Shown here piece after piece: positions 384 through 15,182 of a stretch of 15,499 bases of DNA. Under the pieces are notes generated by a model. The model worked only from the letters and a program-made list of their open reading frames with translations, was not told the origin of the DNA and searched no databases. Both the position numbers and the translations under genes were made by a program. Source of the DNA: Lachnospiraceae bacterium (GTDB lineage: Bacteria > Bacillota > Clostridia > Lachnospirales > Lachnospiraceae); the NCBI GenBank assembly GCA_020860745.1, contig JAJBTR010000180.1, positions 1-15,499 on the forward strand, read 5' to 3'. The stretch's first letter is position 1. Every line of letters starts with the position of its first letter.

Positions 384-2486
384 GTGTTTTATGAACTGGA
401 CCTGGACGACAGGACATATCATGAAATTGAATCAGACGCGGTATTTCAGATACCGCGGGAATATCCGGAGTGGACCAACTACAATCCGGCGGATCCCGGC
501 GTTACGCTGGTACAGCTTCTGTCCTGGCTGACAGAGGTGCAGCAGTACCACTTAAGCCAGGTCGACAGCTGTAAGCGCAGAAAGTTCTTAAAACTGCTGG
601 GAGCCGGAATCCGGTATGCCCGCCCGGCGGAGGGCGCGGTCAGCGCCAGCCCGGGACTGGAGCTGGCGGGGCAGGAGATTGCGCTGCCGGTGGGGAGCCG
701 GTTTTACGCGGAAGATATGGCGTTCGAGACCGTGGAACCGGTGCTGGTCTATCCGATCCGTCTGATCGGCGCTTATATCAGCTGGGAAGACCGGTGGAAC
801 CATTACTATAACATTGACAATGAGATGGAAAAGCAGATCCGGCTCTATCCTTTTGGCGAGGAGCCCCGGGTCGGCGACCAGTGTTATTTTCTGCTGGACC
901 GGCCATTGAGCAGCCGCTATCCGACCGATATGTATTTTGAGATCAGCACCGGCTGTGATCTGGAGCGGAACCCAGTGAGTGAGGATTTTATCTCACTGGC
1001 TGCTCTGGAGTGGGAGTACCAGACGGCGGATGGGTGGGAACCCATGGAGCCGGTGTATGACGAGACCCACGAGCTGCTGTTCAGCGGCAGAATCCGGTTT
1101 TTCCCTGAAAAGGAGATGGAGGCGGACCGTGAGCTGGGGGTTTACCGGATCCGGGTGACATTGCGCTACAATGATTACGATGTGGCGCCTCTGATCCGCA
1201 GCGTAAGGGTGAATGAAATCCCGGTCCGGCAGCAGTATACCTGCTGTGATTATGAGGATCATACCGCTCGTGTTCTGCCGGATGGGAAAACCTGCTGCAT
1301 TGACATCTGCCTTTATCTGGCAAATGCAGGAAAAGCGGAGCTTTATCTGAAGACAGAGGAAGGATGGCTGCCCTGGGAGACGGAGGAGGTCCGCTCGTTG
1401 CAGGGCGGGGCAGTCCGGATTTTCTTCCGGAAGCCTGAGTGGGAGTGGAGAGAAGAAGTCTGCCGGCTGATGGTCTGCGAGGAAGAGTGGGCGGAACGGC
1501 GTGTCCTGGGAAACGGGAACGCTTTCGCAAACCAGGAGTACCGCCTTTACATGCCGGACCTTCTGTATGACGAGTTTGAAATTATGGTTCGCGACGGCAA
1601 AGCGGGAGTTTATCAGAGCTACCGGAAGACGGAGGATTTTGATACCTGCACGCCGGAGAGTCTGGTATATATTCTGGATCCGGAGGCACAGACAATCCGT
1701 TTTGGAGACTGTGAGCGGGGGCAGGCGCCGGATGGCGAGATCCGGCTGATCCGTCTGAGAACCAGCCTCGGCTCCATGGGCAATATCAAAGCGGATAAGA
1801 TAAAGACCTGTGATACCCTGCCCCAGCTGATTGTGAAACAGTACCGGCCGACGATGGGCGGCCGGGACAATGAGGCACTCTCCCGGTGTTTTGAGAGGGT
1901 CCGCCGTGAACTGGATGAGATCAACCGGGGCGTTACCTACGCGGACTACGAGACGCTGGCCAGGAAAGCGCCGGGACTGCTGATTGTGGACAGCAGGGTC
2001 ATCGCGCCGGATGAGTGGGACGAGGGCGGAGAAAACCGGATCACGATTGTGGTGCAGCCCCTGAGCCTGAAAAAGCGCAGCGCGGATCTGAGCAGGCGGT
2101 ACCGGGAAAATCTGATGCGCGTCCTGAACCGGAGAAAGATGCTCGGGACATCCGTCCGGCTGCTGGCGCCGGTGTATATCGGGATCAGTGTCTACGCGGA
2201 GATTGCGATTCTGCCGCAGTTTAAGGACGCGGAGGAGCAGATCGAGACGGCGGTGCGGTCCTTTATAGACGACAGAACCTGGAAAATCGGCAGCCCTGTT
2301 TTAAGCAGCGTCATCTATGGCATCATCGATACGCTGCCCTGTGTGAGACAGGTGAGAACACTGACTCTGGATGGCCGCGGAAAAGGCTGCAGGCGCCTGC
2401 CGGGAGGCGATGTGAGTATTCCGCCAAACGGGCTGGCATGGCTGGAAAATCTGGATTACAGTATCCGGACCGTGGATTTGAGGTGA
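384..2486 (+). CDS. Putative baseplate assembly protein, gpJ-like (TIGR02243-type), 700 aa
   Basis: This is a structural wedge protein of the CIS baseplate. The start is GTG at 384, with a GGGGGA ribosome binding site at 371-376. Residues about 8-73 carry the typical opening of the family: L-D-D-R-T, then E-W-T-N-Y-N-P-A-D-P-G-V-T-L-V-Q-L-L-S-W-L-T-E, then K-F-L-K-L-L-G. From about residue 516 a gpJ core follows (G-V-T-Y-A-D-Y-E-x-L-A-R-K-A-P-G-L), and from about 598 a C-terminal domain comparable to the one seen in the preceding partial gene. Between them lies a long beta-rich region. There is no signal peptide or membrane segment, as expected for a protein assembled in the cytoplasm. It is 4 bases from the gpI-like gene downstream, so the two are probably translated together. 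The family call rests on recognised motifs; a search against TIGR02243/PF04865 would settle it. Confidence 0.88.
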   Translation: MFYELDLDDRTYHEIESDAVFQIPREYPEWTNYNPADPGVTLVQLLSWLTEVQQYHLSQVDSCKRRKFLKLLGAGIRYARPAEGAVSASPGLELAGQEIALPVGSRFYAEDMAFETVEPVLVYPIRLIGAYISWEDRWNHYYNIDNEMEKQIRLYPFGEEPRVGDQCYFLLDRPLSSRYPTDMYFEISTGCDLERNPVSEDFISLAALEWEYQTADGWEPMEPVYDETHELLFSGRIRFFPEKEMEADRELGVYRIRVTLRYNDYDVAPLIRSVRVNEIPVRQQYTCCDYEDHTARVLPDGKTCCIDICLYLANAGKAELYLKTEEGWLPWETEEVRSLQGGAVRIFFRKPEWEWREEVCRLMVCEEEWAERRVLGNGNAFANQEYRLYMPDLLYDEFEIMVRDGKAGVYQSYRKTEDFDTCTPESLVYILDPEAQTIRFGDCERGQAPDGEIRLIRLRTSLGSMGNIKADKIKTCDTLPQLIVKQYRPTMGGRDNEALSRCFERVRRELDEINRGVTYADYETLARKAPGLLIVDSRVIAPDEWDEGGENRITIVVQPLSLKKRSADLSRRYRENLMRVLNRRKMLGTSVRLLAPVYIGISVYAEIAILPQFKDAEEQIETAVRSFIDDRTWKIGSPVLSSVIYGIIDTLPCVRQVRTLTLDGRGKGCRRLPGGDVSIPPNGLAWLENLDYSIRTVDLR

Positions 2487-2490
2487 GAGA

Positions 2491-3645
2491 GTGGATTCGT
2501 TAAAATATTTTGTTTTTAACAAGAAAAAAGATTATCGGCATGGCTGTCTGAATCATATCTGCCTGACAGACCGCGGCATCACCCTGGAGCCGGGGGAGAA
2601 TACGGAAATGGGGGTATTTTTCAGCCGCATCCTGGATTCCGGTGAAGAGGGAAATGCCTGGCACCGGGCTGTGGTCGAGAGTGAGGATTACGGCGACGAT
2701 TCCATCCGCTTTTACTTTTACTGTGCGGACACAGACCGGATTACGGTGGACGGACGTGAGTGGGAGTGGGAGGAACTCATTGGCAGCGATGCGTTTGATG
2801 CGGAGAAAAAGCATAAGCTTATGAGCCCTTATCTGGTGCTGCGGCTGCTGAACCCGAAGGATATCCTGCTGACCGGGGCGAAGGGACGGTATCTGTGGAT
2901 GGAAATCCAGCTGTTTCGTCAGACCGGCTGTGTCCCGCAGATACAGCATATGAAGGTTTATGCCGACAATAAGAGTTTTGCGGATTATCTGCCGGAAATT
3001 TATCGCCGGGGAACGGAAAGCGATTTCCTGCGCAGATACCTGAGTATGTTTGAGGCGGTATACCGGGATCTGGACACAAAGATCCGGGACGCATCCCGAC
3101 AGCTGGATCCTGACGCTGCCCGGCCGGAATTCCTGTACTGGATGGCGGAGTGGATGGGCATTACCACCATTCATCTCTGGTCGGAAGAAAAGCTCCGCAG
3201 GCTGCTGACCGGTTTCGCAAAGAGAAGCCTGGTCCGGGGCACCAGAGAATATATGGAATATATGATCGAGACCTTTACCGGCGAGAAGCCGTATTTTGTA
3301 GAGTATGCGCAGATTGAGGAGTACAGAGGCAACGAAAAGGAGTACCAGACGCTGCTTCACTGCTACGCTCATGACCCTTATGAGGTAAATATCCTGATCC
3401 GGGAGGAGGCTGTTCCGACTTTGAGGGAGCAGCAGGCGCTGATCCAGGTGATCGAGGACGCAAAACCGGCACAGATTGCGGTGCACCTTATCGTTCTGCA
3501 TCCCCATATTTATCTGAGTCAGAATGTATATGTGGGAATTAACAGTTCCCTCGGAACCTATCAGAAGGCATCACTGGACGGCGTGACAGCAATCCTGTCC
3601 GTCGTTGCAGTGGCAAATACAGAAGGCAAAGGAGATCAAAAATGA
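2491..3645 (+). CDS. Phage tail protein I-like baseplate protein (TIGR02242-type), 384 aa
   Basis: This is a baseplate component that in phages sits between wedge and tail fibre (gpI). The start is GTG at 2491, with AGGTGA at 2481-2486 overlapping the stop of the gene before. Residues 1-160 are beta-rich and have no clear family. From residue 166 the gpI signature appears: Y-L-P-E-I-Y-R-R, then D-F-L-R-R-Y-L-S-M-F-E, a D-P-D-A-A-R-P-E-F-L-Y-W-M-A-E-W-M-G stretch, and a basic helix ending G-T-R-E-Y. In related loci this gene directly follows the gpJ-like gene, as here. Its last bases overlap the next gene by four (ATGA at 3642-3645), an arrangement that couples translation. No membrane segment is visible. 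The domain call is firm; the job of the N-terminal half is unknown. Confidence 0.85.
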   Translation: MDSLKYFVFNKKKDYRHGCLNHICLTDRGITLEPGENTEMGVFFSRILDSGEEGNAWHRAVVESEDYGDDSIRFYFYCADTDRITVDGREWEWEELIGSDAFDAEKKHKLMSPYLVLRLLNPKDILLTGAKGRYLWMEIQLFRQTGCVPQIQHMKVYADNKSFADYLPEIYRRGTESDFLRRYLSMFEAVYRDLDTKIRDASRQLDPDAARPEFLYWMAEWMGITTIHLWSEEKLRRLLTGFAKRSLVRGTREYMEYMIETFTGEKPYFVEYAQIEEYRGNEKEYQTLLHCYAHDPYEVNILIREEAVPTLREQQALIQVIEDAKPAQIAVHLIVLHPHIYLSQNVYVGINSSLGTYQKASLDGVTAILSVVAVANTEGKGDQK

Positions 3646-4913
3646 AGAATCTGAAGTGTTTTCCTTTTGAGAGAAACCGCTATTTTTACGGAAAGCTGCT
3701 GTCTGCGGATGATTTTGAGACAGAGCAAAAATATTTTAATGACAAACGCAGGACCGTAAACCGGTATCTCCTGGGAACCGGCGTGGTCTGCGGCCTTCAT
3801 GTGGTGGAGGTGGACGACGAGACCATATCGGTGGAGCGCGGCCTGGCATTGGATTTCTCCGGACGGGAGATTGTGGTGGATGAACCGGTCATCCGCCGGA
3901 TTTCACAGTTTGAGGGATATGACGACGACTCCGGGACGGACGGGGAGAGCGGCTACCATTACCTCTGCCTGGAATACCGCGAGGAAGCGGCGGAGCTGAT
4001 GCACAATGTGGCCGGGTCGCCGGACAGCAACAACGGTGAGTTCAACAAATATATGGAAGGATACCGCCTTTTTGTGACACAGCAGGAACCGGAACACGAA
4101 ATTTTTACACCGGACCGGCTATATCAGGAGAGCTGCGTGGTCTATGACGGCGAGGGCGTCCGCATTTCCCATGTCAGCCCAAGGTATCTGGAGGCCGGGG
4201 CGGATGCCGTTCTGCAGGTGGAAATTGAAAAGACCGGACAGCAGCAGGTCATCTCCTTTGACTATGATCTGGAATTCTCCTCCATGACCAGCATGGATGA
4301 GACGAAAGTTCACATTCATTTTGATGAGAGCGAGTACCCGAAGAGCCAGAGTTACCGGATGGAGGTTCCGGTGAGGGCGGCTTATGTCAATGGAGTGGAG
4401 GCGCAGGCGGCTGTGGTATCCGACAGTTTCCTGCTGAAAGCAGGCGGCCGGGAATATGACCCTGCGGTCCATGCGGTGAGCAGTGGGTTTGTCAGCAGCC
4501 TGGACAGCTATGAGGCGATGCAGGAGGAATACTACCGGGGAGCGATGGATTACATTGTCAATCATACGTTCCAGCAGAGTATCTATCTGGCAAAGATCTA
4601 TGTGGTAAAAGCGGGGACAGCCTGCATGATCGACCGGGTGGAGCAGCTGCCGTTTTCACAGAGGATTCTGCACATGGAAATTTCTGCCGCTCTGATCGAA
4701 AAGCTTGCGGATGATGTGCAGAAGCTGAAAGCCCTGGAAAAATCCGGTGACAATGCAAAGGGAGACGCTTCGCCCCGGGAAAAATCAATGGAGATTGCCA
4801 GCGGGGAGGTTGTTTTTGACCTGGCGGATGCAAAAAGCCGGACAGACGCTGCTCTCCGAGGAGATTACGCATGGCCTTGGTTTTTCACAGGTGTCGGTGA
4901 TCCTCGGGTATGA
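3642..4913 (+). CDS. CIS-associated protein with FERNRYFYGK start, N-terminal piece of a frameshifted gene
   Basis: As read, this frame gives 423 aa and ends at TGA 4911-4913. The start at 3642 is well placed: GGAG at 3631-3634, and a four-base overlap with the gene before. The opening F-E-R-N-R-Y-F-Y-G-K-L-L-S-x-D-D-F, then E-Q-K-Y-F-N-D-K-R-R and G-x-G-V-V-C-G-L, is a pattern I associate with proteins of unknown function placed next to tail-like baseplate genes. A beta-rich middle and a helix near residues 355-375 follow. Up to about residue 398 (K, codon 4833-4835) the sequence looks natural; the last 25 residues are out of character, rich in Trp and Arg. The expected continuation (S-E-E-I-T-H-G-L-G) sits in the next frame, so I read this as the front of a 583-aa protein, 3642-5394. 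Its function is unknown; structural or adaptor work at the baseplate is plausible. Confidence 0.7.
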   Translation: MKNLKCFPFERNRYFYGKLLSADDFETEQKYFNDKRRTVNRYLLGTGVVCGLHVVEVDDETISVERGLALDFSGREIVVDEPVIRRISQFEGYDDDSGTDGESGYHYLCLEYREEAAELMHNVAGSPDSNNGEFNKYMEGYRLFVTQQEPEHEIFTPDRLYQESCVVYDGEGVRISHVSPRYLEAGADAVLQVEIEKTGQQQVISFDYDLEFSSMTSMDETKVHIHFDESEYPKSQSYRMEVPVRAAYVNGVEAQAAVVSDSFLLKAGGREYDPAVHAVSSGFVSSLDSYEAMQEEYYRGAMDYIVNHTFQQSIYLAKIYVVKAGTACMIDRVEQLPFSQRILHMEISAALIEKLADDVQKLKALEKSGDNAKGDASPREKSMEIASGEVVFDLADAKSRTDAALRGDYAWPWFFTGVGDPRV

Positions 4914-5394
4914 GCTGGAGGGTACGGGCGCCGGGAAAAATGTGACGGTTTTCGGAGATCCCGATGTGTTTTCCGTAAGCGATGGGATACGGCTTGGCGC
5001 GCAGGTGAATGCGGAGGAGGGCTATCTGGTCCTGGGTGTAAAGTGTCAGAAAGACATGGGCAAGGGAAAGCTCAGGGTGTTCTGGACCGCACTGCGGGAT
5101 GACACGGCGAAAACTTTCACACAGAAGAAGCGAATCCTGATCCGCCCTGACATACCGAATGTGTTTGCGGGCGAGAGTATGGTATTTACCGTAGTCCTGG
5201 AGGGATTTGAGGACGATCGCTTTATCTGGAAGGTAAAGGACAGTGAGGGCGGTACGATAGACAGAAACGGTAAGTATACCGCACCGGATACAGCCGGGGT
5301 TTATCAGATTTCGGTAGAGAGCACCGCGTATCCGGAAGTGAAAGCGACGACATTTGTCGTGGTTCAGGAGAGGGATAACAACTGGCAGGAGTGA
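4828..5394 (+). CDS. C-terminal piece of the same frameshifted protein, with a bacterial Ig-like domain
   Basis: This frame is open from well before the junction to TGA at 5392-5394. From about base 4837 it reads A-G-Q-T-L-L-S-E-E-I-T-H-G-L-G, the natural continuation of the upstream frame. A beta-rich segment follows. From about base 5140 an Ig-like module appears, with an opening P-x-V-F-A-G-E-S, then F-I-W-K-V, G-G-T-I-D-R-N-G-K-Y-T-A-P and G-V-Y-Q-I-S-V. An ATG at 4828 could serve as an internal start, but no good ribosome binding site precedes it, so separate translation is doubtful; the coordinate given is a convention. If the frameshift is real, this half is expressed poorly or not at all. 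If it is a sequencing error in the A-run, both pieces form one protein. Confidence 0.6.
   Translation: MQKAGQTLLSEEITHGLGFSQVSVILGYELEGTGAGKNVTVFGDPDVFSVSDGIRLGAQVNAEEGYLVLGVKCQKDMGKGKLRVFWTALRDDTAKTFTQKKRILIRPDIPNVFAGESMVFTVVLEGFEDDRFIWKVKDSEGGTIDRNGKYTAPDTAGVYQISVESTAYPEVKATTFVVVQERDNNWQE
4832..4836 (+). other. Apparent frameshift site: run of five A
   Basis: The upstream frame reads GAT GCA AAA AGC here. Dropping one A gives GAT GCA AAA GCC GGA CAG and joins both halves into a continuous 583-aa frame. The change needed is +1 (or -2). A lysine tRNA on AAA at 4833-4835 could slip forward one base and still pair with AAA at 4834-4836, so slippage is possible, but an indel in the homopolymer is simpler. 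Confidence 0.65.
5387..5391 (+). promoter_or_regulatory. Ribosome binding site AGGAG fixing the start at 5399
   Basis: AGGAG lies 7 bases before ATG 5399 and overlaps the end of the preceding gene. The frame extends further upstream to an ATG at 5354, but that one lies inside the previous gene and lacks a good site, so 5399 is preferred. Confidence 0.7.
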
Positions 5395-5398
5395 CGGC

Positions 5399-6268
5399 AT
5401 GGAGATCAGAGTACTGGACAAACATTATGAGGTGATACAGAGAATCCGTTCCACCGGATCTCTGAATGTCTACGTGGCACGGGACTGCAATCTCTCAGAG
5501 GGCGATCTGTGTACGGTGGCCTGTGTCCGCGATGAGGCGCTGATCCGGGATCTGATACCGGTTACCACCGTGAACAATACCAGCCGGTCTTTTAAGGATC
5601 TGCGGGAGAGTTTTATCGCGGACGGAAGGTATTATATTGTGCTCCGTTATGTGGAAGGGGAACATTTTTCCGAGGCGGTAAAAAAGCATGACTGGAATCT
5701 GGAAGAGCGCCTTCTGCTGGTAAAAAACCTTTTTTTCCGGATTCTGACGATGAATATGCCAACCTGTTTTATCTATGAGGCGCTGCGGCGGGACAGCATT
5801 GTGGTAGACGCTGCGATGGGTGTTTCGTTCCGCTATTGTTTTGTTGAAGCGGACTCTTACGGGAAAGTGACGGAGGCGGACTGCATGAAGCGTGTGGGGG
5901 ATCTGCTTCTGGAGCTTTTTGAGAAAGAACTGAAAGAAAAAAGTTCTCCGGAGCTGACCCGGTTCTTCCGTGACATGGAGAGAGGGAAGTTTGAGGCGCT
6001 CTGGGATTATTATGTGGCTTTTGACGAAATCTACGACCAGATTCGCCAGAAAAACGCAAACAATGAGATAAAGCCGAGGCGCCTCCGCCAGAAGATTCAG
6101 GAACGGTTTCAGAAAGTGTTCCCGGTGATAAAAACGGTTCTGACGGTAGCATTGATCGCGGCGGCGGGTATTTATCTTCTGTGGAGCCTGCCAAATCCGG
6201 CGATTTCAGACGACGGAAGTACTTTTTCGAAGATCGGGACGCTGAATATCGTGGAGCAGCAGGAATAG
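5399..6268 (+). CDS. Tail-anchored kinase-like (probable pseudokinase) membrane protein, 289 aa
   Basis: The start at 5399 is set by AGGAG at 5387-5391; the gene begins 4 bases after the previous stop. Residues 1-230 look cytoplasmic and have the feel of a small protein-kinase fold: an opening Y-E-V-I-Q-R-I-R-S-T-G-S-L-N-V-Y-V-A-R-D in place of the glycine loop strands, a later Y-Y-I-V-L-R-Y-V-E-G-E-H-F like a hinge region, and a following helical part. I see no HRD or DFG motif and no proper glycine-rich loop, so catalysis is unlikely. A basic stretch around residues 220-240 (K-P-R-R-L-R-Q-K) precedes a single membrane segment at about 245-266 (ending A-A-G-I-Y-L-L-W), leaving a short tail of some 20 residues outside. 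In this context it may bind the CIS or its partners at the membrane. The kinase-fold reading is inference; structure prediction would test it. Confidence 0.5.
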   Translation: MEIRVLDKHYEVIQRIRSTGSLNVYVARDCNLSEGDLCTVACVRDEALIRDLIPVTTVNNTSRSFKDLRESFIADGRYYIVLRYVEGEHFSEAVKKHDWNLEERLLLVKNLFFRILTMNMPTCFIYEALRRDSIVVDAAMGVSFRYCFVEADSYGKVTEADCMKRVGDLLLELFEKELKEKSSPELTRFFRDMERGKFEALWDYYVAFDEIYDQIRQKNANNEIKPRRLRQKIQERFQKVFPVIKTVLTVALIAAAGIYLLWSLPNPAISDDGSTFSKIGTLNIVEQQE

Positions 6269-6286
6269 ACAGGAAATGACGTTAGC

Positions 6287-6321
6287 TTCCCGCAGCTGCG
6301 GCATGGCATGACAGCCGGGAA
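6287..6321 (+). other. Intergenic hairpin before the MORN gene
   Basis: Arms TTCCCG (6287-6292) and GCTG (6295-6298) pair with CAGC (6312-6315) and CGGGAA (6316-6321), leaving a two-base bulge and a 13-base loop. No T-run follows, so it is not a standard terminator. It sits just ahead of the ribosome binding site of the next gene and could affect message stability or translation. Confidence 0.45.
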
Positions 6322-6341
6322 CAACGAAAGGAAGTGACACA

Positions 6342-8534
6342 ATGGATCTAATGGAAGTGATTGCGAAATCAGCCGGCAAGTTGTGGACGATTCTGTCCGC
6401 ACCGTTTGTGGCTATCGTGCGGAATATCAGAACGGTAAATTATACATATTCCTTCGCGAACAGGCTGATCGGCGACTTTCGCAAGAATATGAAGGAAAAG
6501 AAAAAAGAACACTCCCTGAAGGATTATTTTTCTATCCGCCATTACTATGTGTCGAAAAAGCTGGTATATATTATCCTTCTGGCGGCGGTGGTTGCTCCTA
6601 TCCTGTGCGTAAAAATGCTGGTTCCGTTGATGGTATCTAAGTTTTTTACGAAGACGATGGTCATAAATTCGGAGGAGATGATCGGATACTCCGGGAATGT
6701 GAAGCTGGTTTCCACAGAGGACGGCACGCTTCTGTTCAAAGGGACGATGGAGAACGGAAGAATCAACGGCACGGGACAGCTCTACACTTACGAATGGAAC
6801 CTGCTCTATGAGGGGAACTTTGAGATGGATGCCTCTTCCGGCGACGGGGAGCTCTACTACGAGGATAGCGATGTCCTCTGCTACAAAGGAAACTTTGAAC
6901 TGAATCTGTACCAGGGACAGGGACAGCTTTATGATGAGGACGGAGACCTGCTCTATGAGGGCGAGTTTGTCAACGGCCTCTATGAGGGGAACGGAACGCT
7001 CTATTATGACAACGGGCAGGCGAAGTATGTCGGTGAGTTTGTCAATGGACTCTATGAGGGAAACGGAACGCTCTATTATGACAGCGGACAGGAGAAGTAT
7101 GTTGGTGAGTTTCAAAAGGGAATGATGCAGGGAACCGGTACGCTCTATGACGAGGATGGAAATGTCATAGCGGAGGGGACATTTGAGAATGATCAGCCTA
7201 CCCTGCAGAGCGTTACGCTTTATGACGACGACGGGAACCTGCTCTACGACGGAACCGTGAACTCTGACGGTGAATATGAGGGCGAAGGGAAGCTGTATGA
7301 GGACGGGGAACTGCTCTACGACGGTTCTTTCGACGACGGCGAGTATGAGGGCGAAGGGAAACTATATGATACCAGTGCCGACAGTGGGAGCGGCGACGGC
7401 GGCAGCGGGAGTGATGGAAGCAGCGGCGGGAGTGATGGCAGCAATGATGATGACAGCAACGATGGTGATGACAGCAGCGACAATGATGACAGTAATGACA
7501 GCGACGAGAGTGATGGCAGTGTCGACAGTGACAACCAGGGTACGCTGATTTATGAGGGCGGTTTTTCCGAAGGCGAATATGAGGGCGAGGGTGATCTCTA
7601 TGAGGACGGAACCCTGATTTACAGCGGTGATTTTGCGGACGGCAGCAGGGATGGAACCGGGGAAGCTTACGATGAGGACGGCGAGCTGATCTACAGCGGA
7701 CAGTTTGCATCGGATGAGTACAGCGGAACCGGGAAGCTCTATGAGGAGGGCGAGCTGGTTTACAATGGAAGTTTTGCCGAGGGGGAAAAGAACGGAACCG
7801 GAAAGCTGTACGATGAGGAGGGTGAGCTGCTTTTCATCGGGTCTTTTGTGGACGGCGTCTATGACGGCGAGGGAAAGCTGTATGAGGAGGGGGAACTGCT
7901 TTATTCCGGCAACTTTTCGGATGGTGAATATGACGGCGAGGGAAAGCTGACGGATGTGGAGACAGGAAACCTGATCTACAGCGGAGAGTTTTACCAGGGC
8001 GTCTACAGCGGAAACGGAAAGCTTTACGATTCGGAGACGCAGATTCTGCTCTATGACGGTGAGTTTTTAAATGGCCTGTACAGCGGGCAGGGAACACTTT
8101 GGGATTCCGACGGCAATCTCCTCTACGTAGGAAATTTTGTGTCGGGAAAATATTACGGTTCTGGTATCCTCTATGACACGGATACCGGGAAAATCCTGCA
8201 ATCCGGTGAATTCAGGAACGGTGCTCTTGTCACCACATCAGATGATATTGATGTGGAGTACGGCGTCATCACCTGTACGGTGACGGATACCAGCGGTTCC
8301 GTGATTTCCGGTGTGGAGATTACGCTGAGCGACGGGCAGGGCGGAGTCACCGATTCCAACGGGCAGGTGATCTTTGCCAACCATGAGCTGGGAACCTGGC
8401 GGGTTACGGCGACCGTGCCGGATGGATATACCTCCTCGCAGCCGTCTGTGAGCGCGACGATCTCAGCGGACGCGAATACGGCGACGGTCAGCATTGTGCT
8501 GACGGAGACGGAGTCCGAGTCCTCCGAGGAGTAG
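6342..8534 (+). CDS. Membrane-anchored MORN-repeat surface protein with C-terminal Ig-like domain, 730 aa
   Basis: The start is ATG 6342 with AAAGGAAG upstream. Residues 1-73 are basic and probably cytoplasmic. A membrane segment runs from residue 74 to about 98 (starts L-V-Y-I-I-L-L-A-A-V-V). From residue 130 to about 630 there are some 18 MORN repeats of about 23-25 residues, consensus L-L-Y-x-G-x-F-x-x-G-x-Y-x-G-x-G-x-L-Y, one of them (around residues 275-295) degenerate. A Ser/Asp/Gly/Asn-rich linker interrupts them at 344-399. From residue 641 a transthyretin/Ig-like domain follows, with T-C-T-V-T-D-T-S-G-S-V and T-D-S-N-G-Q-V-I-F, and an acidic Glu/Ser end. By the positive-inside rule the repeats lie outside the membrane. 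MORN repeats form extended beta sheets and are often tied to membranes, scaffolding or assembly; here a stalk or docking scaffold for the injection system is possible. There is no LPxTG motif and no enzyme domain. Confidence 0.85.
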   Translation: MDLMEVIAKSAGKLWTILSAPFVAIVRNIRTVNYTYSFANRLIGDFRKNMKEKKKEHSLKDYFSIRHYYVSKKLVYIILLAAVVAPILCVKMLVPLMVSKFFTKTMVINSEEMIGYSGNVKLVSTEDGTLLFKGTMENGRINGTGQLYTYEWNLLYEGNFEMDASSGDGELYYEDSDVLCYKGNFELNLYQGQGQLYDEDGDLLYEGEFVNGLYEGNGTLYYDNGQAKYVGEFVNGLYEGNGTLYYDSGQEKYVGEFQKGMMQGTGTLYDEDGNVIAEGTFENDQPTLQSVTLYDDDGNLLYDGTVNSDGEYEGEGKLYEDGELLYDGSFDDGEYEGEGKLYDTSADSGSGDGGSGSDGSSGGSDGSNDDDSNDGDDSSDNDDSNDSDESDGSVDSDNQGTLIYEGGFSEGEYEGEGDLYEDGTLIYSGDFADGSRDGTGEAYDEDGELIYSGQFASDEYSGTGKLYEEGELVYNGSFAEGEKNGTGKLYDEEGELLFIGSFVDGVYDGEGKLYEEGELLYSGNFSDGEYDGEGKLTDVETGNLIYSGEFYQGVYSGNGKLYDSETQILLYDGEFLNGLYSGQGTLWDSDGNLLYVGNFVSGKYYGSGILYDTDTGKILQSGEFRNGALVTTSDDIDVEYGVITCTVTDTSGSVISGVEITLSDGQGGVTDSNGQVIFANHELGTWRVTATVPDGYTSSQPSVSATISADANTATVSIVLTETESESSEE
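6963..7106 (+). repeat. Near-identical 72-base tandem repeat, two copies, inside the MORN gene
   Basis: Copies at 6963-7034 and 7035-7106 encode almost the same 24 residues (E-F-V-N-G-L-Y-E-G-N-G-T-L-Y-Y-D-x-G-Q-x-K-Y-V-G). They are much closer to each other at the DNA level than other MORN units in the gene, which points to a recent in-frame duplication. Confidence 0.8.
7371..7538 (+). repeat. Low-complexity Ser/Asp/Gly/Asn-coding stretch in the MORN gene
   Basis: The stretch encodes residues 344-399, an almost pure S/D/G/N linker built from repeated AGC, GAC, GAT and GGC codons. It splits the MORN array in two and resembles the flexible Ser-Asp spacers of Gram-positive surface proteins. 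The long frame on the opposite strand here is only its complement. Confidence 0.75.
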
Positions 8535-8634
8535 GATCAGAAAAGGGAAGAATTGGATTTGTGCTGTTGGCTCAGAAGTTATCGCGAAATCAGTATATCT
8601 TATTTTGTGACAGTTTCTGGGCGGGCGGCGGAAT

Positions 8635-8640
8635 GGGAGA
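8635..8640 (+). promoter_or_regulatory. Ribosome binding site GGGAGA fixing the start at 8646
   Basis: GGGAGA lies 5 bases before ATG 8646. The same frame is open back to a TTG at 8553, but the 31 extra residues do not look like the DUF4255 family, whose proteins begin at about this point. Confidence 0.65.
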
Positions 8641-8645
8641 ATAAA

Positions 8646-9209
8646 ATGGCGGATTATACCTCAATCGCGAATATGGCACAGGAGCTGCTGCGGCGCCTCT
8701 CGGATGCGCTGGTTCCGGATCTTGTTGGCAGCAGGGATCTGATCGGCCTGTGTGCGCCGGAGGACCACGGGGATTATACGGTGGGGATCTGGCTTTATGA
8801 CGTCAGGGAAAACACGGATGTCCAGCTGCATGATATGATCTCCGCAGGGCAGAATGCCCAGCGGTATCCCTCCGCGTATCTCACCCTGCGGTTTATGATT
8901 ACTCTTTTTCTGCAGAGTGACCTGAAGTACCGCTCGGCACAGGAACAGCAGATCCTGGGACGTATCATACAGGCGCTACGGGATCAGGCGACCGTGGAGG
9001 CGGAGGAGGTGCTGACCTCCGGGGAGGCGACCGGACCGGATATCCGGATCCGGATGATGAATCTCTCCATGGAGGAAAAGATCCGGCTCTGGACCGTGCC
9101 GAATACGGCGTACCGTCCCTCCCTGTTTTACGAAATCGGACCGGTGGAGATCCAGTCTGAGCGCAAGAGAGATGTGAAGAGAGTGCGCGATATCAGATAT
9201 CGCTTATAA
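8646..9209 (+). CDS. DUF4255 family protein (Pvc16 N-terminal-like), probable tail terminator, 187 aa
   Basis: In extracellular CIS such as PVC and Afp, the protein with this domain (Pvc16/Afp16) caps the tube and sheath and limits their length. The start is ATG 8646. The family pattern is visible along the protein: an N-terminal helix (I-A-N-M-A-Q-E-L-L-R-R-L), a strand with G-I-W-L-Y-D-V-R-E-N, the Y-P-S-A-Y-L-T-L-R-F-M-I-T segment, an E-Q-Q-I-L-G-R-I-I-Q-A-L helix, and the closing L-W-T-V-P-N-T-A-Y-R-P-S-L-F-Y-E-I-G-P-V-E-I. The length suits the domain alone, without the C-terminal extension some homologues carry. The gene stands 111 bases after the MORN gene and 18 bases before the next. 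No membrane segment is seen. Confidence 0.88.
   Translation: MADYTSIANMAQELLRRLSDALVPDLVGSRDLIGLCAPEDHGDYTVGIWLYDVRENTDVQLHDMISAGQNAQRYPSAYLTLRFMITLFLQSDLKYRSAQEQQILGRIIQALRDQATVEAEEVLTSGEATGPDIRIRMMNLSMEEKIRLWTVPNTAYRPSLFYEIGPVEIQSERKRDVKRVRDIRYRL
9187..9203. repeat. Perfect palindrome GCGATATC-A-GATATCGC
   Basis: Eight-base arms around a central A overlap the last codons of the DUF4255 gene, just before the stop. The size and symmetry would suit a dimeric DNA-binding protein, or a small message hairpin, but it lies in coding sequence and no second copy was noticed. Confidence 0.4.
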
Positions 9210-9213
9210 ACGG

Positions 9214-9222
9214 AGAAGGAGG
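9214..9222 (+). promoter_or_regulatory. Ribosome binding site AGAAGGAGG deciding among GTG 9222, ATG 9228 and ATG 9234
   Basis: GTG 9222 overlaps the site itself and is unlikely to be the start. ATG 9228 is 5 bases after GGAGG and ATG 9234 is 11 bases after it. The spacing favours 9228. Confidence 0.6.
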
Positions 9223-9227
9223 TGCGG

Positions 9228-10022
9228 ATGCGGATGGCAAAACAGATGCTGGATGAGATACATCTGACCCTTTCCAAAGCAGTTCTGATCAGGGATGCTT
9301 TTACCGGGAAAGGCGTGACAAACGGGATACAGGTTCAGGCTGCCGGGGGCTATAAGCCGGTCCTGAAGCCCGGCGGTTACTGCCTCTTCCTCAATCTGGA
9401 TACAGACACCATTGAGGTGGAGATTACCTCCGCGATTTATCAGAGCTGCAGACTTGTCCTTACGGCCGATGGGGGCAGCAAGGCGCAGGAAATTTTTCTC
9501 TATCCGTCCGCGGCCTACCCCGTGGGAAGAAATACTACGGTGGTCAGCGGGCAGGCTCCCGCAGGTGCGATGCTGTATTTTCATCTGGAGGAAAAAAGGC
9601 GGGAATACAGGCTGCTGCACGATTATAAAAAGGGAGAGAAAGAAATATCCATCTTTACGGGAGGAACCGCTGCCGCGGTGGGCGGTCTCTGGTTTATCCG
9701 GGAGCAGAACAACAGCACCGGCGAATATTTCCGTTCATTGGCTCCGGCCGACGGGTCGGAGGCAGAGGAGGAGCCGGAGGCGGAGCGGGGCGTGTTAGAG
9801 CAGACTTTGCAGAAAGGCTACCGGAAAAAAGACGCGAGACTTTATCCGGCTTTTGCGTGTGCGGCGGGGGAGGACGGAATGTTTTACCTGTTTTTAAATC
9901 AGTTAAAAGAACAGGATTACCGCCTGTTCTTCTCCTGTGAACAGGATGGAGCTTTTGTTAACAGGGAGATCGGAATACGGGGATGTGTTTATAACACCGT
10001 TGAGACGAAAGCTGCCCCGTAA
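9228..10022 (+). CDS. Unknown CIS-locus protein with Ig/transthyretin-like N-terminus, 264 aa
   Basis: I do not recognise a named family. The N-terminal 75 residues (A-V-L-I-R-D-A-F-T-G-K-G-V, then K-P-V-L-K-P-G-G-Y-C-L-F-L-N-L, then I-E-V-E-I-T-S-A-I-Y-Q-S-C) look like a beta-sandwich of the carboxypeptidase-regulatory or transthyretin type. The rest is a second beta-rich region with an acidic Glu-rich turn around residue 180, and a final Y-L-F-L-N-Q-L-K-E-Q-D-Y-R-L-F-F segment. No signal peptide, membrane helix or enzyme motif is visible. Its place between the DUF4255 gene and the PAAR-like gene suggests a particle component or adaptor, for instance a substitute for the C-terminal part of Pvc16-type proteins, but that is only inference from position. 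Confidence 0.6.
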   Translation: MRMAKQMLDEIHLTLSKAVLIRDAFTGKGVTNGIQVQAAGGYKPVLKPGGYCLFLNLDTDTIEVEITSAIYQSCRLVLTADGGSKAQEIFLYPSAAYPVGRNTTVVSGQAPAGAMLYFHLEEKRREYRLLHDYKKGEKEISIFTGGTAAAVGGLWFIREQNNSTGEYFRSLAPADGSEAEEEPEAERGVLEQTLQKGYRKKDARLYPAFACAAGEDGMFYLFLNQLKEQDYRLFFSCEQDGAFVNREIGIRGCVYNTVETKAAP

Positions 10023-10121
10023 GGAGCTGTGAGGATTCATTCTTTCGCAGTACCTGAAGCCGGACGAACAGCAGAAACAAAAGGATGAGGGAAAAAGTAT
10101 GAGAACAGGAAGGAGCAGGAT

Positions 10122-10505
10122 ATGGGATTATGTGTGACAGGGGGAGCGATGATGACCTGTACGTTTGGGATGGCTCCTTCCACATTCAATGTTTTGCCGA
10201 CGGCGCGGGTGATGTCCGCCATGCCGCTGGCATCCATTATGGATAATGTACCGCTGGTAAATATTATGCCGTTCGGCATGTGCACCTGCATGGCAAACCC
10301 GACGGTGGCGGCGGCGACGGCTGCTGCTCTGGGAGTGCTGACTCCCATGCCCTGTATCCCGGTGACGACGGCGCCGTGGACGCCGGGGGTTCCCCAGGTG
10401 CTTGTGGGAGGAAAGCCGGCGCTGAATAACCAGTGCAAGCTGCTCTGTTCCTACGGAGGGATGATACAGTTCACGAACCCGGGATGTCAGACGATACAGC
10501 TGTAA
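10122..10505 (+). CDS. PAAR-like protein (DUF4280), spike tip, 127 aa
   Basis: PAAR and PAAR-like proteins cap the central spike of contractile systems and can carry or recruit cargo. The whole small protein fits the DUF4280 type: M-G-L-C-V-T-G-G-A-M-M-T-C-T-F-G at the start, V-L-P-T-A-R-V near residue 24, N-I-M-P-F-G-M-C around 48, A-N-P-T-V-A-A-A-T, a Pro-rich middle (P-M-P-C-I-P-V) and L-N-N-Q-C-K-L-L-C-S-Y-G-G at the end. I count eight cysteines. The start at ATG 10122 has AAGGAG about 7 bases upstream. It lacks any C-terminal effector extension, so cargo would be carried by separate proteins, which agrees with the separate cargo-like genes downstream. Confidence 0.88.
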   Translation: MGLCVTGGAMMTCTFGMAPSTFNVLPTARVMSAMPLASIMDNVPLVNIMPFGMCTCMANPTVAAATAAALGVLTPMPCIPVTTAPWTPGVPQVLVGGKPALNNQCKLLCSYGGMIQFTNPGCQTIQL

Positions 10506-10607
10506 CGGTATCCGCAGAGGATCAGAGCGGACCGGAACAGGGTGATGGCAGGTTTTAAAAAGTCTGCGCAGCGGCAGATAATCTGACGGACATTAGAGGA
10601 TAAGCAT

Positions 10608-13289
10608 ATGAAAATAAACATAAAGCGGTTCGCACTGCGCACGCTGATGATTATTGTGGCTGCAGTTGCAGTGTTGGTTGTACTTTTGCTTTTATTAGTG
10701 AATAATGTGATTCTGCAGGGGGTGACCCATGTCAGTCTTGCGGAGGATTCCATGTATATTGTGGATCTGGACAGTACGGAAGATGAATACTGGATTATAC
10801 GCACGGATCTGAACGGGGAGAATGGCGCGGCGATCTATTTTGATCAATATGATATGGATTACAGCTATCAGGTACGTCAGATTTTCCTGGATGACGAGGG
10901 GGAAGCCTATGTTCTGATTGAAATGGTAGATCTCAGTACGATGGAGGAGATATCTCCTGCAATTTTTCACTGTAATTTTACAAGTCTTTCCCTGGAGGAG
11001 ACGGACTATGATCTGTCTGTGGAGTCCGTGGTTCAGGTACAGATCCAGGGGATCCGGGACGGAAAGCTGTATTATTTTCAGTCGGAGACGGAGAAGTTTT
11101 CCGGGGTATCGGTATGCGCGATGGAACCGTCGGGAAAGACGGAGGTGATAGACGCGATCACTCTTGAGTATCCGGATCTTAAGACGCAGTTTTACCTGAG
11201 TGAAAATCAGACGCTTCTGTGGATGGACTACAGCGGAGCCGTCCATATCCGGAAAGTGGGGGAGGAAGAAGAAATCGAGATCGAAGGGGTCACGGGCATC
11301 AGCAATACCTTTATGAATCTCGCGGATGACGGAGAAAACATGGCTTATGTGACAGACCATGAGGCGGATGTGATCCGGGCGGTCAATCTGGAAACCATGG
11401 AGACTGAGATCCTCTACACGGAGGGGGAAGCGGAGTTCTCTCTGGATGATATCAGCAGCACTGATTGTACGGACCGCGGATTCGCGGCGGCCGGCGACGG
11501 CGGCGGCGTCTATGTCTGGATCGACGGAGCCGGTCAGTATATTGAGATCATACAGGTTGCCAGGGCGTTTTTCCATATCAAAATGGGAGTCATGATGGCT
11601 ATGTTTCTGCTGATTGTCCTGGTGTTTATTCTTTACCGGATTTTTTACCGCATAAGGCACAGACAGACGGTACTGATGCGTATCATAATGATTTTTCTCG
11701 TAGTGATTTATCTGAGTGACCTGGCTGTGGAACGGTACATGGAAATGACGTTTTCAGATCAGATGACGCAGACCCAGGATCTGGCTCTGTCTGTCCTGGG
11801 GGAGCAGCTGATCGGCCGGATTGAGGAAAATCTGGTGGAGAATGGCGAGCTGTCTATGGAAGACACCTCCGTGCTGGAATTTTCCCGGCAGACCGGACTT
11901 CTGCTCTCCCTGGAATACGAGTATACGATTGTCAGACAGGATGAGGATGGTACATACCGTATCTATGCCTCAACGCAGGAATACTCTAATGTGCCGCTTG
12001 CGCAGCGCTACACCGGGAATCCGTATAATGCGATCCTGGAGGTATATGAAACAGGGGAAAGTCAGACCCTCAGCGATACGGACAGCGGTGTCAAAAGAAG
12101 GGAGCTTTTCCTTCCCATTACCGGGGAGGATGGGACAATCTGCGGTGTTCTGGCGATTGCCGTCCTCGGAAATAATTCCAATGCGCAGATCTGGCTTTAC
12201 AACCAGCTCCTGAGGATCATTATCACTATACTGATGGGGATTGTGCTGGCGGTGCTTGTCATTGTGCTGACTATCTTCCTGTGGCCGTTAAAGAGGCTGA
12301 AGGCGTGCGCGGATAAAATGGCCGGGGGAGAACTGAACGTGACGGTTCCCGTGCACGGGCATGATGAAATTGCCAATATCTCGGAGGCGTTTAACCATAT
12401 GTCAGACGGAATTTCCCGCCATGTGACCGATATCCAGGAGATGTCGGAGTGTTATTACAAATTTATCCCTGCAAAAATTCTGACATTGCTGGGAAAAGAG
12501 TCGATCCGCCAGGTGGAACTGGGGGATGAGATCAGCAAAAATATGACCATCCTTTCCATGCACGCCATCGACTACCCGAAACAGAAGCTGGCGCTGTCGG
12601 CGGAGACAGTTTACGCCAATATCAATCACATTTTATCTGTGATGGTGGCTTCCATCGTGGAACAGCAGGGGATGGTGGAGCACTTTGAGGATTCCGGTCT
12701 GACCGCCCTCTTTACCGAAGAGTGCCGGTGCGCGGTGGACGCGGCGATCTCGATTCATCGGTCGCTGGATAAAAACGCGCCGGGGGAGGGCAGATGTGTC
12801 GCCGTCACCTACGGACGCGTGATGCTGGGTGTGATCGGAAACGAGACCCGTCTGGAAGTGACGGCCATCTCCAATCATGCGGATCTGGCCAAAGCGCTCC
12901 GGACGAAGGGAGAAAAATATGGCGCCAGAATCCTGATCACCCACCTGATTTATCAGCAGATCCCGGAGTTTGAGCGGCAGTATCACGCCCGCTATCTGGG
13001 AAATATCTATCTGTCGTCTACCGAAAGCATGGAGCGGATTTATGATGTGTACGATGGGGATCCGGAGGAATCCTTCTACTATAAAGAACTGACAAAGTCC
13101 CTGTTTGAGGAGGGAGTGCAGCTTTTCGTCGCCCGGAAGTTTTATGCGGCGCGGCTGGTTTTTGTGGAAGTGTTAAAGCAGCACCGCAAGGACAGCGCAG
13201 CCAGAGAGTACCTGTACCGCTGCGACAGATATTATAAGCTGAGCGATAAGGAACAGCAGAATGTGGATACTGTGATGGAGCGGTTCTAG
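10608..13289 (+). CDS. Four-pass membrane receptor with HAMP and degenerate class III cyclase-like domain, 893 aa
   Basis: The start is ATG 10608 with GAGGA upstream. Membrane segments lie at about residues 11-33, 326-349, 355-375 and 535-558. An outside beta-rich, propeller-like region fills 34-320, and a second outside, Cache-like sensor 376-534. HAMP follows at 559-612 (W-P-L-K-R-L-K, then D-E-I-A-N-I-S-E-A-F-N), then a class III cyclase-like domain at about 619-810, and a TPR-like helical tail from about 833. The cyclase shape is clear (F-I-P-A-K-I-L, then G-V-I-G-N-E-T-R-L-E-V-T-A-I-S), but the expected first metal Asp is His (T-I-L-S-M-H-A-I), the second metal Asp is Ser, the purine-specifying Lys is His (V-E-H-F-E-D-S-G-L), and the Asn and Arg of the N-L-A-x-R motif are Asp and Ala (D-L-A-K-A). 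It probably senses an outside signal and passes it on by protein contact. A cyclase with unusual residues remains possible. Confidence 0.75.
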   Translation: MKINIKRFALRTLMIIVAAVAVLVVLLLLLVNNVILQGVTHVSLAEDSMYIVDLDSTEDEYWIIRTDLNGENGAAIYFDQYDMDYSYQVRQIFLDDEGEAYVLIEMVDLSTMEEISPAIFHCNFTSLSLEETDYDLSVESVVQVQIQGIRDGKLYYFQSETEKFSGVSVCAMEPSGKTEVIDAITLEYPDLKTQFYLSENQTLLWMDYSGAVHIRKVGEEEEIEIEGVTGISNTFMNLADDGENMAYVTDHEADVIRAVNLETMETEILYTEGEAEFSLDDISSTDCTDRGFAAAGDGGGVYVWIDGAGQYIEIIQVARAFFHIKMGVMMAMFLLIVLVFILYRIFYRIRHRQTVLMRIIMIFLVVIYLSDLAVERYMEMTFSDQMTQTQDLALSVLGEQLIGRIEENLVENGELSMEDTSVLEFSRQTGLLLSLEYEYTIVRQDEDGTYRIYASTQEYSNVPLAQRYTGNPYNAILEVYETGESQTLSDTDSGVKRRELFLPITGEDGTICGVLAIAVLGNNSNAQIWLYNQLLRIIITILMGIVLAVLVIVLTIFLWPLKRLKACADKMAGGELNVTVPVHGHDEIANISEAFNHMSDGISRHVTDIQEMSECYYKFIPAKILTLLGKESIRQVELGDEISKNMTILSMHAIDYPKQKLALSAETVYANINHILSVMVASIVEQQGMVEHFEDSGLTALFTEECRCAVDAAISIHRSLDKNAPGEGRCVAVTYGRVMLGVIGNETRLEVTAISNHADLAKALRTKGEKYGARILITHLIYQQIPEFERQYHARYLGNIYLSSTESMERIYDVYDGDPEESFYYKELTKSLFEEGVQLFVARKFYAARLVFVEVLKQHRKDSAAREYLYRCDRYYKLSDKEQQNVDTVMERF

Positions 13290-13382: not shown

Positions 13383-15182
13383 GTGGGAGATGATTCAGCG
13401 ATTCAGAAACTGCAAAATGATACTGATCTGTCCACCCCGCAGGGAGTCAGCCCGGAGCAGACAGAACTGAATCAACAGCCGAACCTGGGGCAGCGTCCCA
13501 TTCAGGATTCCAATCCGAACCCAAATCCGGGTCAGAGACCGAATCCGGACAGTCCTCCGCCGGAAGACAACCTGCCGGAAGACAACTTGCCGGAGAACAA
13601 TCCGCCGGAAAACAATCTGCTGCAGGATCAGGCACATCAGACTGACGGGTCGGAGGAAAGCCACGGCGGCAGGAGGACGAATGAAGGAGAACAGGCGGTA
13701 GATACCGTTCACACGGATGCGGTAAACGCATACAGTAATGCGAACGGAGACACAGGCAGGAGCGGCGGAGGGCAGGAAGCCGCGGAGGACAAGGTCTTTG
13801 ACAATCCGGGTGAAGCGCCGACGGACGAAGCGCTGCCCTCTGATATACCGGCCGGTCCGATTTATGACTCACTGAAAGAGACAAAGGACCGTCTGTATCT
13901 GTATCGGACAAACAGTACCGTCTATAAGGCGGTCTGTGTAGCCAGACTGCTGTATAATAAGAAGGACAATCCGCTGGCTGCCCCTGAGAGCACATCACAG
14001 AAGGTGTTGGAAAAGGCGGAAACTGCCTGGGATTCTCTCGTCGCTGTGAACAATATGGTGTCCGGTGGAAATCAGGTTTACAGTTCCCTTGTTTCTGAGG
14101 GAAAGACAACGAACGTCATCTCCACCATTACGGCTGCGGTCGGGGCTGCCGCCTCAGCCGTGGATACGATCCGGAATCTGAAGAAAATCATTCAGAACTT
14201 TAAGGCGAAGAATTTCTGGACTCTGGATAATATGCTGGAGGTTGTCAGTGCAATCAGTAATGCCTGCTTTCTGTTCGGCTATATCGGCAGTTCGCTGGAG
14301 GCTGGATTTAAAGCGTTCGGCGGCCGGCCGCCGGCCTGGGTAAATCGTTTTGTCAAGGTTTCCTATTTCCTGACCGGAAGCGCTGAGGTTGGCGCCACGC
14401 TTGTATCGGCCACAAAAATCGGCGTTCTGCTGAAGAAGGCCAGCAGTTTTGAAAAAACAGATGATCTGAAAAAAGCGAAGGAAGCGGCTTCCGGCGTAAT
14501 CAACCGGTACAAAAAGCCCGATGATGCGTTACTGGATCCGAACAAGGAATCGGATCGTGTCTGCAAGAACAAGGCCAGGGAATTGCTGAGGCGAAAAGAA
14601 CAGGGAGAGCTTCAGCTGGAGGAAGAGGAAGTCAAAACTCTGGTACGCTATGTCGCACTGCGGGGAAGGATCGATGATGCGAGAATGTCCGCTTTGAAAC
14701 TGGTTCCGGGACTTTTGACAAGTGTAACGGACGCATTCGCCAGCTTCTGGGGCGGCACACACCTGAAAGGGAGCGACGACGATTCCGAGGACAAGGTAGG
14801 AGACTGGAGTTATGCGATATCAGGTGCCTTTTTCGCCGGCAGTTCGGCTCTTGATCTGAAGGATACCATCCATGATGCGGCGTCGGACGGACCGGGCGGG
14901 GAAGTAAACAAAATGACGGCGAACTTTATGTGGAACAAGTTTGAGACGCTGATCACACATGATGAGTATGGCCTGAAAGGACTGGATCTGGAAATCAGAA
15001 TGCACAGGGATGCATATGATAGAAATATTGCGGACACGCTGAAGGAGAAAGAGCAAAGTGCTAATGAAAAATACGAGGATCTGGGAAAAACGATGGAGAG
15101 TATGTATATTTCGGTTGACGATTTGCTCGAGGCGTCGGATATCGAGGGGTTTAAGTCCCTGCTGGTTGCCTCGGAGCTGTAG
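13383..15182 (+). CDS. Candidate CIS cargo/effector: disordered Pro/Asn-rich leader plus helical body, 599 aa
   Basis: I recognise no named family. Residues 1-155 are disordered and rich in Pro, Asn, Gln, Glu and Gly, with N-P-N-P-N-P-G-Q-R-P-N-P and a four-fold five-residue repeat at 60-79 (P-E-D-N-L type). From about 157 the protein becomes helical. Hydrophobic, small-residue-rich stretches lie near 245-263, 287-306, 326-350 and 477-492, separated by charged helices (D-D-L-K-K-A-K-E-A, then L-E-E-E-E-V-K-T-L). This mix is reminiscent of soluble proteins that insert into membranes, but no family motif proves it. There is no signal peptide. Location after the PAAR-like and receptor genes and a leader resembling the next gene make it a good cargo candidate: known eCIS effectors carry flexible N-terminal packaging signals. 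An adaptor or structural role is also possible. Confidence 0.55.
   Translation: MGDDSAIQKLQNDTDLSTPQGVSPEQTELNQQPNLGQRPIQDSNPNPNPGQRPNPDSPPPEDNLPEDNLPENNPPENNLLQDQAHQTDGSEESHGGRRTNEGEQAVDTVHTDAVNAYSNANGDTGRSGGGQEAAEDKVFDNPGEAPTDEALPSDIPAGPIYDSLKETKDRLYLYRTNSTVYKAVCVARLLYNKKDNPLAAPESTSQKVLEKAETAWDSLVAVNNMVSGGNQVYSSLVSEGKTTNVISTITAAVGAAASAVDTIRNLKKIIQNFKAKNFWTLDNMLEVVSAISNACFLFGYIGSSLEAGFKAFGGRPPAWVNRFVKVSYFLTGSAEVGATLVSATKIGVLLKKASSFEKTDDLKKAKEAASGVINRYKKPDDALLDPNKESDRVCKNKARELLRRKEQGELQLEEEEVKTLVRYVALRGRIDDARMSALKLVPGLLTSVTDAFASFWGGTHLKGSDDDSEDKVGDWSYAISGAFFAGSSALDLKDTIHDAASDGPGGEVNKMTANFMWNKFETLITHDEYGLKGLDLEIRMHRDAYDRNIADTLKEKEQSANEKYEDLGKTMESMYISVDDLLEASDIEGFKSLLVASEL
13560..13619 (+). repeat. 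15-base tandem repeat, four copies, in the leader of the cargo-like gene
   Basis: Four units (13560-13574, 13575-13589, 13590-13604, 13605-13619) encode P-E-D-N-L, P-E-D-N-L, P-E-N-N-P and P-E-N-N-L. Being a multiple of three, copy-number change would lengthen or shorten the disordered leader without breaking the frame. Confidence 0.75.

Follow-up and report, generated by a model that had tools for sequence, protein, structure and literature searches.

A membrane pseudokinase, a MORN protein, and a pseudocyclase receptor as a candidate platform for contractile injection systems in Clostridia

How the particle of a contractile injection system (CIS) meets and crosses the envelope of its own Gram-positive host has, in the portions of the literature accessible to us, been described so far only for CisA of Streptomyces. 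The same question is raised by contig JAJBTR010000180.1 of a Lachnospiraceae bacterium (GenBank assembly GCA_020860745.1), the whole of which, one 15,499-base contig of a 3.1-Mb draft genome, was analyzed here as a single window. It reads as a single-strand (+) run of CIS genes, among which stand three genes for membrane proteins: a pseudokinase (kin), a protein with MORN repeats (MORN), and a pseudocyclase receptor (cyc). The initial annotation had suggested that this trio forms a trans-envelope platform that holds and triggers the particle, a sensing and gating module with no evident enzymatic output. Sequence comparison across genomes places them all in a single conserved cluster. We consider it somewhat more likely than not that the trio, with p4 (a Cis13-like baseplate protein encoded next to kin) as adaptor, serves in Clostridia as a platform on which a membrane-anchored CIS is docked and triggered.

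Occurrence of kin with CIS genes

Among 397 genomes of Lachnospiraceae, the CIS marker PF14065 was found in 39 and kin in 38, with 37 genomes in common (Fisher p 1.5e-48, a value that is only indicative, as the genomes are related). The kin profile was built from 32 kin sequences and applied at E <= 4e-20; the next matches lay at 3e-12 and weaker. This neighborhood survey, which the initial annotation had called for, shows that within the family kin does not occur mostly apart from CIS genes: the 38th kin genome (G375), although without PF14065, has a 5-kb contig that encodes gpI, p4, kin, and MORN. kin was missing from just two of the 39 PF14065 genomes: the contig of G025 starts partway through the cluster, and in G205 nothing but a PF14065 fragment is left. 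MORN and cyc, which were sought only around CIS genes (cyc additionally in eight whole genomes), were present in 36 and 31 of the 39, respectively. Weak kin matches (E 3e-12 to 1e-3, mostly covering residues 1-144) were set aside as ordinary kinases or chance, a judgment based on their range plus one example (L011, a PASTA kinase) and not made individually. A wide protein search with the kin alignment returned 14 proteins; it says little on the range of kin because it missed most family members known from the genome searches.

In all 40 regions of the earlier set that hold both genes, kin lies directly after p4, with a gap of fewer than 50 bases or an overlap in 37; the largest gap, 443 bases, is the window's own, where p4 is split. 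No near-identical pair was present among the kin of these 40 regions, and identity to the window copy was 12-26% outside the closest four sequences. Taken with the sharing of kin and PF14065, the unbroken p4-kin order indicates that the arrangement is not due to chance. It also bears on a regulatory reading, in which the pseudoenzymes would act as envelope sensors that, by way of other proteins, govern whether the CIS is expressed, assembled, or released, with no contact to the particle. Such a role would fit the HAMP and sensor architecture of cyc, as well as the RsbU/SpoIIE-type phosphatase-like gene (so classed by motif) that lies near a short cyc in four clusters, yet kin follows a baseplate gene in every one of the 40 regions and Pfam shows no DNA-binding domain in the window's kin, MORN, or cyc. 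We regard a purely regulatory module as distinctly unlikely.

An order-level search of 295 genomes identified 18 with kin at E <= 1e-15, of which 13 previously unseen neighborhoods were fetched as a held-out set; the profiles for p4, MORN, and cyc had been trained on the first region set, and only the 13 regions are independent of the kin profile. p4 was found on 13 of 13 kin contigs, with kin directly after it in 12. Among those 12, the kin of G924 is broken into two open reading frames (ORFs); in the thirteenth, G826, kin is in the same cluster on the opposite strand. MORN was labeled in 11 of the 13 contigs and cyc likewise in 11; the remaining contigs break off at kin (G956) or a single gene beyond it (G1033). 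Having been picked at E 1e-15, the held-out set is silent on the behavior of weaker kin matches. At the level of the class, PF14065 was found in 15 of 391 genomes; eight of these were newly fetched, and the g383 genomes G633, G673, and G722 were left out of fetching. All of p4, kin, cyc, and MORN were present in G654 and G694, and MORN and cyc were present in G746, whose contig begins at MORN.

A further account is that of an ordinary extracellular CIS (eCIS) freed by lysis, whose membrane proteins would be carried along in the cluster and act at the surface or in particle release. In its favor, the sheath, two gp19 tubes, LysM CIS_tube protein, spike, AAA+ ATPase, and Pvc16 make up a core set of eCIS type. 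However, kin is kept beside p4 across several families at low identity, which is not the behavior of a passenger, and another clostridial CIS type lives without the module; we therefore hold this account to be highly improbable.

Two main cluster layouts were distinguished. Type I, that of the window, runs gpJ-gpI-p4-kin-MORN-Pvc16-p9-DUF4280-cyc, and type II runs p4-kin-cyc-MORN-C17-C15-Pvc16-p9-DUF4280-sheath; mixed layouts also occur in some clusters. Profiles of the two types match by hhalign for kin (E 6e-23), MORN (7e-38), and cyc (2e-38), by which all three proteins are orthologous between the layouts.

Domain architecture of kin, cyc, and MORN

The 289-amino-acid (aa) kin (5399..6268, +) comprises a kinase fold at residues 1-220, a single transmembrane (TM) segment at 240-262, and a short outer tail with a conserved IGT; the window's protein continues for 27 residues past this segment, and tails are short in most aligned kin. 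Structural models predict a two-lobed protein kinase fold. At the columns of the active-kinase residues VAIK Lys, HRD Asp, and DFG Asp, the expected residue was found in 0 of 32 aligned rows each; when misalignment is tolerated, 19 of 32 rows have a Lys somewhere in residues 41-46, and an Asp falls no more than two residues from the HRD site in 5 rows and from the DFG site in 4. Judged by alignment and modeling, kin is a pseudokinase with one TM segment, and the positive-inside rule backs its topology in 33 of 37 cases. A phage origin of kin was rejected, as the window's copy had no match in 50,697 phage records.

The larger cyc (10608..13289, +; 893 aa) has four hydrophobic segments: a first TM segment is followed by an all-beta outer domain (33-317), two further TM segments, a second outer domain (~388-520), and a last TM segment. 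The C-terminal half carries a HAMP domain (560-602; E 9e-10), a class III cyclase fold (641-815) resembling those of the adenylyl cyclases OaPAC and CyaC, and helices at 820-884. Unlike the class III cyclases, cyc is without the metal-binding Asp pair in all 41 distinct domains that could be aligned (0/41, 36 of them with letters at both columns); a single Asp was kept in a few, 5 domains having only the first and 3 only the second. For another 12 regions, most of them type II, no alignment of cyc was obtained at E 1e-5. From sequence and predicted fold, cyc is a four-TM receptor with a HAMP domain and a cyclase fold devoid of its metal-binding pair. The loss of catalytic residues in both kin and cyc supports the earlier suggestion that the module has no enzymatic output. 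Four loci of the held-out set (L125-L128; G833, G861, G1008, and G988) carry two tandem cyc per cluster, and the second paralogue keeps the first metal Asp only.

MORN (6342..8534, +; 730 aa; PF02493 at E 5e-28, also PF13620 and PF17802) has, in the window, an N-terminus followed by a TM segment (69-102), a long MORN array, and an Ig-like C-terminal domain, in whose place type II proteins have a different conserved C-terminal region. One N-terminal TM segment was found in 42 of 43 MORN proteins, the exception beginning at a contig end, and the window, G463, and the type II alignment all show this segment ahead of the repeats. The MORN profiles of the two layouts align over 228 columns that include the N-terminus and the TM segment (hhalign, 99.95%). 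In G427, kin and MORN form one 660-aa ORF in which the kinase domain runs into the MORN TM segment; this fusion is a single case and could alternatively reflect a local deletion. The membrane segments that the initial annotation had reported for all three proteins were confirmed, with one in kin, one in MORN, and four in cyc.

A candidate docking and triggering platform

In the mechanism that we favor, p4 would bind the cytoplasmic pseudokinase domain of kin, and kin and MORN together would hold the particle at the inner face of the membrane, with MORN reaching into the wall. As an optional trigger, cyc would sense something outside the cell and relay a conformational change via its HAMP and pseudocyclase domains to the docked baseplate, leading to firing. 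In cyanobacteria the anchoring TM segment belongs to Cis13 itself, a role that here would have passed to the neighboring gene. We infer the docking of p4 to kin because a Cis13-like protein without a TM segment is followed by a membrane pseudokinase, and by analogy to the thylakoid CIS (tCIS), to the archaeal type VI secretion system (T6SS), and to EssB/YukC and TraF. p4 (3642..5394, +) is represented in the window by two overlapping frames (3642-4913 and 4747-5394), with no hydrophobic segment in either piece, and in complete copies of relatives by a single ORF of 575-617 aa. The intact p4 of L006 matches NF053767 CIS13_fam at 88 bits (E 5.5e-25, residues 9-157); we call it Cis13-like because the cut-off of that family was not reached.

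In the tCIS of Anabaena, the TM segment of Cis13 penetrates the thylakoid membrane and Cis12 touches the membrane, and removal of the Cis13 TM segment frees many particles. What the two systems share is a baseplate with Cis12-like and Cis13-like proteins that comes into contact with a membrane, a contact suggested here by the genes; the difference is that Cis13 has a TM segment of its own, whereas the window's p4 has none and a separate TM pseudokinase comes next. For the archaeal T6SS of Halogeometricum, Cis12 and Cis13 have been proposed to meet the membrane, with Hbor_38620 as a putative anchor. There, too, the presence of a conserved membrane protein is correlated with a CIS subset (29 of 41 clusters), but Hbor_38620 has six predicted TM segments and a cytoplasmic domain of ~150 residues. 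The pseudokinase itself has parallels in other monoderm secretion machines: YukC (EssB/YukC) of the type VII secretion system (T7SS) is a membrane pseudokinase that has been described as an interaction hub, and TraF of the type IV secretion system (T4SS) has been proposed to serve in complex formation. kin shares with them a membrane protein plan with a cytoplasmic pseudokinase domain and differs from them in ending ~27 residues past the TM segment, without an outer helical domain. It accordingly lacks the large outer domain that follows the TM segment in EssB/YukC (PF10140). No EssB or YukC was among the matches listed for kin (50-row lists), and direct hhalign comparison of kin with two YukC gave a probability of 0.3%, in a setting in which the control against one true kinase likewise failed.

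The Gram-positive host is shared with the cytoplasmic CIS of Streptomyces, which has been linked to cell death and requires CisA for firing. By its description, CisA is set apart from kin, with a largely unstructured N-terminus as opposed to a kinase fold, and the available part of that description mentions no MORN or cyclase-like partner. A comparable scenario in the Clostridia would be that particles are stored in the cytoplasm and that envelope stress, perceived via cyc and MORN, makes kin recruit them and fire them into the cell's own membrane, causing self-lysis. The sensor-like appearance of cyc would suit this scenario; the long MORN arrays and, in type II, C17 and C15 suggest more outside parts than it would seem to need, and we consider it unlikely.

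Beyond docking as such, the module might belong to a T6SS-like secretion machine that monoderm gut Clostridia fire upon contact or stress, with a trans-envelope complex of dead enzymes in which kin would grip the baseplate, MORN would be a rod crossing the wall, and cyc would pass on the firing signal mechanically without a second messenger. We put this forward tentatively, with appreciably less than even confidence. The canonical T6SS component TssL/DotU (PF09850) was found in 0 of 8 genomes, with an E. coli control matched (TssJ and TssM were not searched), so by this sequence marker the clusters would not be canonical T6SS.

Several observations weigh against the docking and triggering platform. 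With respect to the proteins, p4 lies below the curated CIS13 cut-off (88 versus 370 bits) and matches in its N-terminal part only, and a hydrophobic segment was present in 1 of 36 p4 entries (G222). Five models of kin ranged in pLDDT from 78 down to 48, the kin of G422 and G694 have no TM segment, and the positive-inside rule is neutral for MORN (21/42). Distance-matrix correlations across 20 genomes gave 0.92 for kin and p4 (partial 0.62 given gpJ and sheath), but kin tracks the hub protein C9 as well (0.93, partial 0.65) and MORN less (0.84, partial 0.32); because the genomes share history, such correlations lend weak support only. In addition, a module with a role of its own elsewhere in that pathway would also be co-inherited in one cluster.

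With respect to distribution, cyc was not found in G128, G426, G218, and G147, all of which keep p4, kin, and MORN (searched near the cluster and genome-wide, with the type II profile only; the G218 contig ends after the sheath gene), so cyc cannot be essential everywhere. The remaining cyc-less genomes are G025 and G351, which end at contig borders, the remnant G205, and G373, whose kin contig was not fetched. Moreover, none of kin, MORN, or cyc lies near the CIS of G570, of G791, of G631, or of the first locus of G463; this different CIS type occurs in genus g383 (three genomes examined) and in G631. The latter encodes a kin-like protein (L120:17341-18558) with a TM segment and an outer PKD domain, at a site with no CIS gene in its vicinity. 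Finally, G762 and the second locus of G463 carry p4, MORN, and cyc with no kin by profile. The module accompanies a single CIS type, and outside the window's order, to judge from these last two loci, that type can do without kin. The interpretation of the membrane genes as a particle platform is thus partly supported: with regard to loss from relatives that keep an intact CIS, it holds well for kin within the family and less so for cyc and for the other clostridial CIS type. Of note for the relation between the two types, the single-contig genome G463 has two CIS loci of different types (L118, L119; L091, L092), one of them without the trio.

Other genes of the window and variation among clusters

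Every gene that the initial annotation had named (the membrane trio, gpJ, gpI, DUF4255, and the PAAR-like gene) was confirmed, each on the + strand. It had delimited the interleaved CIS and membrane genes at 5399..13289; the interleaving stands, while gpJ and gpI lie upstream of that start in the same gene run, and two cluster genes had gone unnamed, p9 inside the interval and p4 immediately before it. At the contig start, which cuts it, a 5'-open ORF (1..336, +) encodes the gp25-like end of a large baseplate J-like protein; its product shares 74% identity with a portion of a 979-aa L006 ORF, which scores 148 bits against TIGR02243 (cut-off, 156). It is followed by gpJ, a baseplate J-like protein (384..2486, +; PF04865 at E 7.7e-9; TIGR02243 at 193 bits), and by gpI, a Cis12-like baseplate protein (2491..3645, +; PF09684 at E 1.6e-4; NF053768 CIS12_fam at 121 bits, cut-off 860). 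The split of the window's p4 may be a sequencing error or mark a decayed gene, in which case this CIS copy may be inactive.

Downstream of MORN lie the Pvc16_N (DUF4255) protein (8643..9209, +; PF14065 at E 1.6e-24), a putative CIS cap; p9 (9222..10022, +), a conserved CIS-cluster protein without a Pfam match that has homologues in 37 of 43 regions; and the PAAR-like DUF4280 protein (10122..10505, +; PF14107 at E 2.1e-33). Beyond cyc, p13 (13383..15182, +), with a low-complexity, Pro/Asn-rich N-terminus and no Pfam or NCBIfam match, is possibly a cargo candidate, its membership in the cluster being uncertain. An Rfam scan of the window yielded nothing reaching the gathering threshold. Sheath and tube genes are absent from the window, because the contig ends. 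G035:C4, with the same gene order, also has the sheath, two gp19 tubes, the LysM CIS_tube protein, and Pvc16, and further encodes the hub, spike, gp25, and AAA+ ATPases; it is by these components an eCIS-type contractile injection system, of which the window carries the baseplate-to-PAAR part alone.

C17 (~685 aa) and C15 (~907 aa), most with an N-terminal TM segment, lie between MORN and Pvc16 in type II clusters (e.g., in L036 and L050) and might be additional components in the envelope; the G052 proteins give weak matches, C17 to an outer-membrane-efflux family and C15 to Cu_amine_oxidN1. G129 and G427, both of genus g111, differ in cluster layout, a difference suggesting that the cluster was transferred or replaced in its entirety. 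The phosphatase-like gene near a short cyc, presumably RsbU/SpoIIE-type, occurs in L021, L023, L072, and L074 (G427, G119, G097, and G320, respectively); it is on the opposite strand in G119, and some motif residues look altered.

Implications

We found no publication describing the module by title or abstract start, and none linking a CIS with a pseudokinase, in searches that covered no preprints and only a minority of subscription journals; the main texts of Geller et al. (2021) and of a 2025 metagenome survey contained no relevant passage on Clostridia, MORN, or a kinase. With CisA of Streptomyces as the point of reference, the module offers named candidate genes for the meeting of Gram-positive CIS particles with their own envelope, and one isolated strain that carries these genes is Sporofaciens musculi WCA-9-b2 (L014). 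A CIS marker is carried by about one in ten of the family genomes sampled (39/397). kin may represent a third use of a membrane pseudokinase in a Gram-positive secretion machine, besides those in the T7SS and the T4SS.

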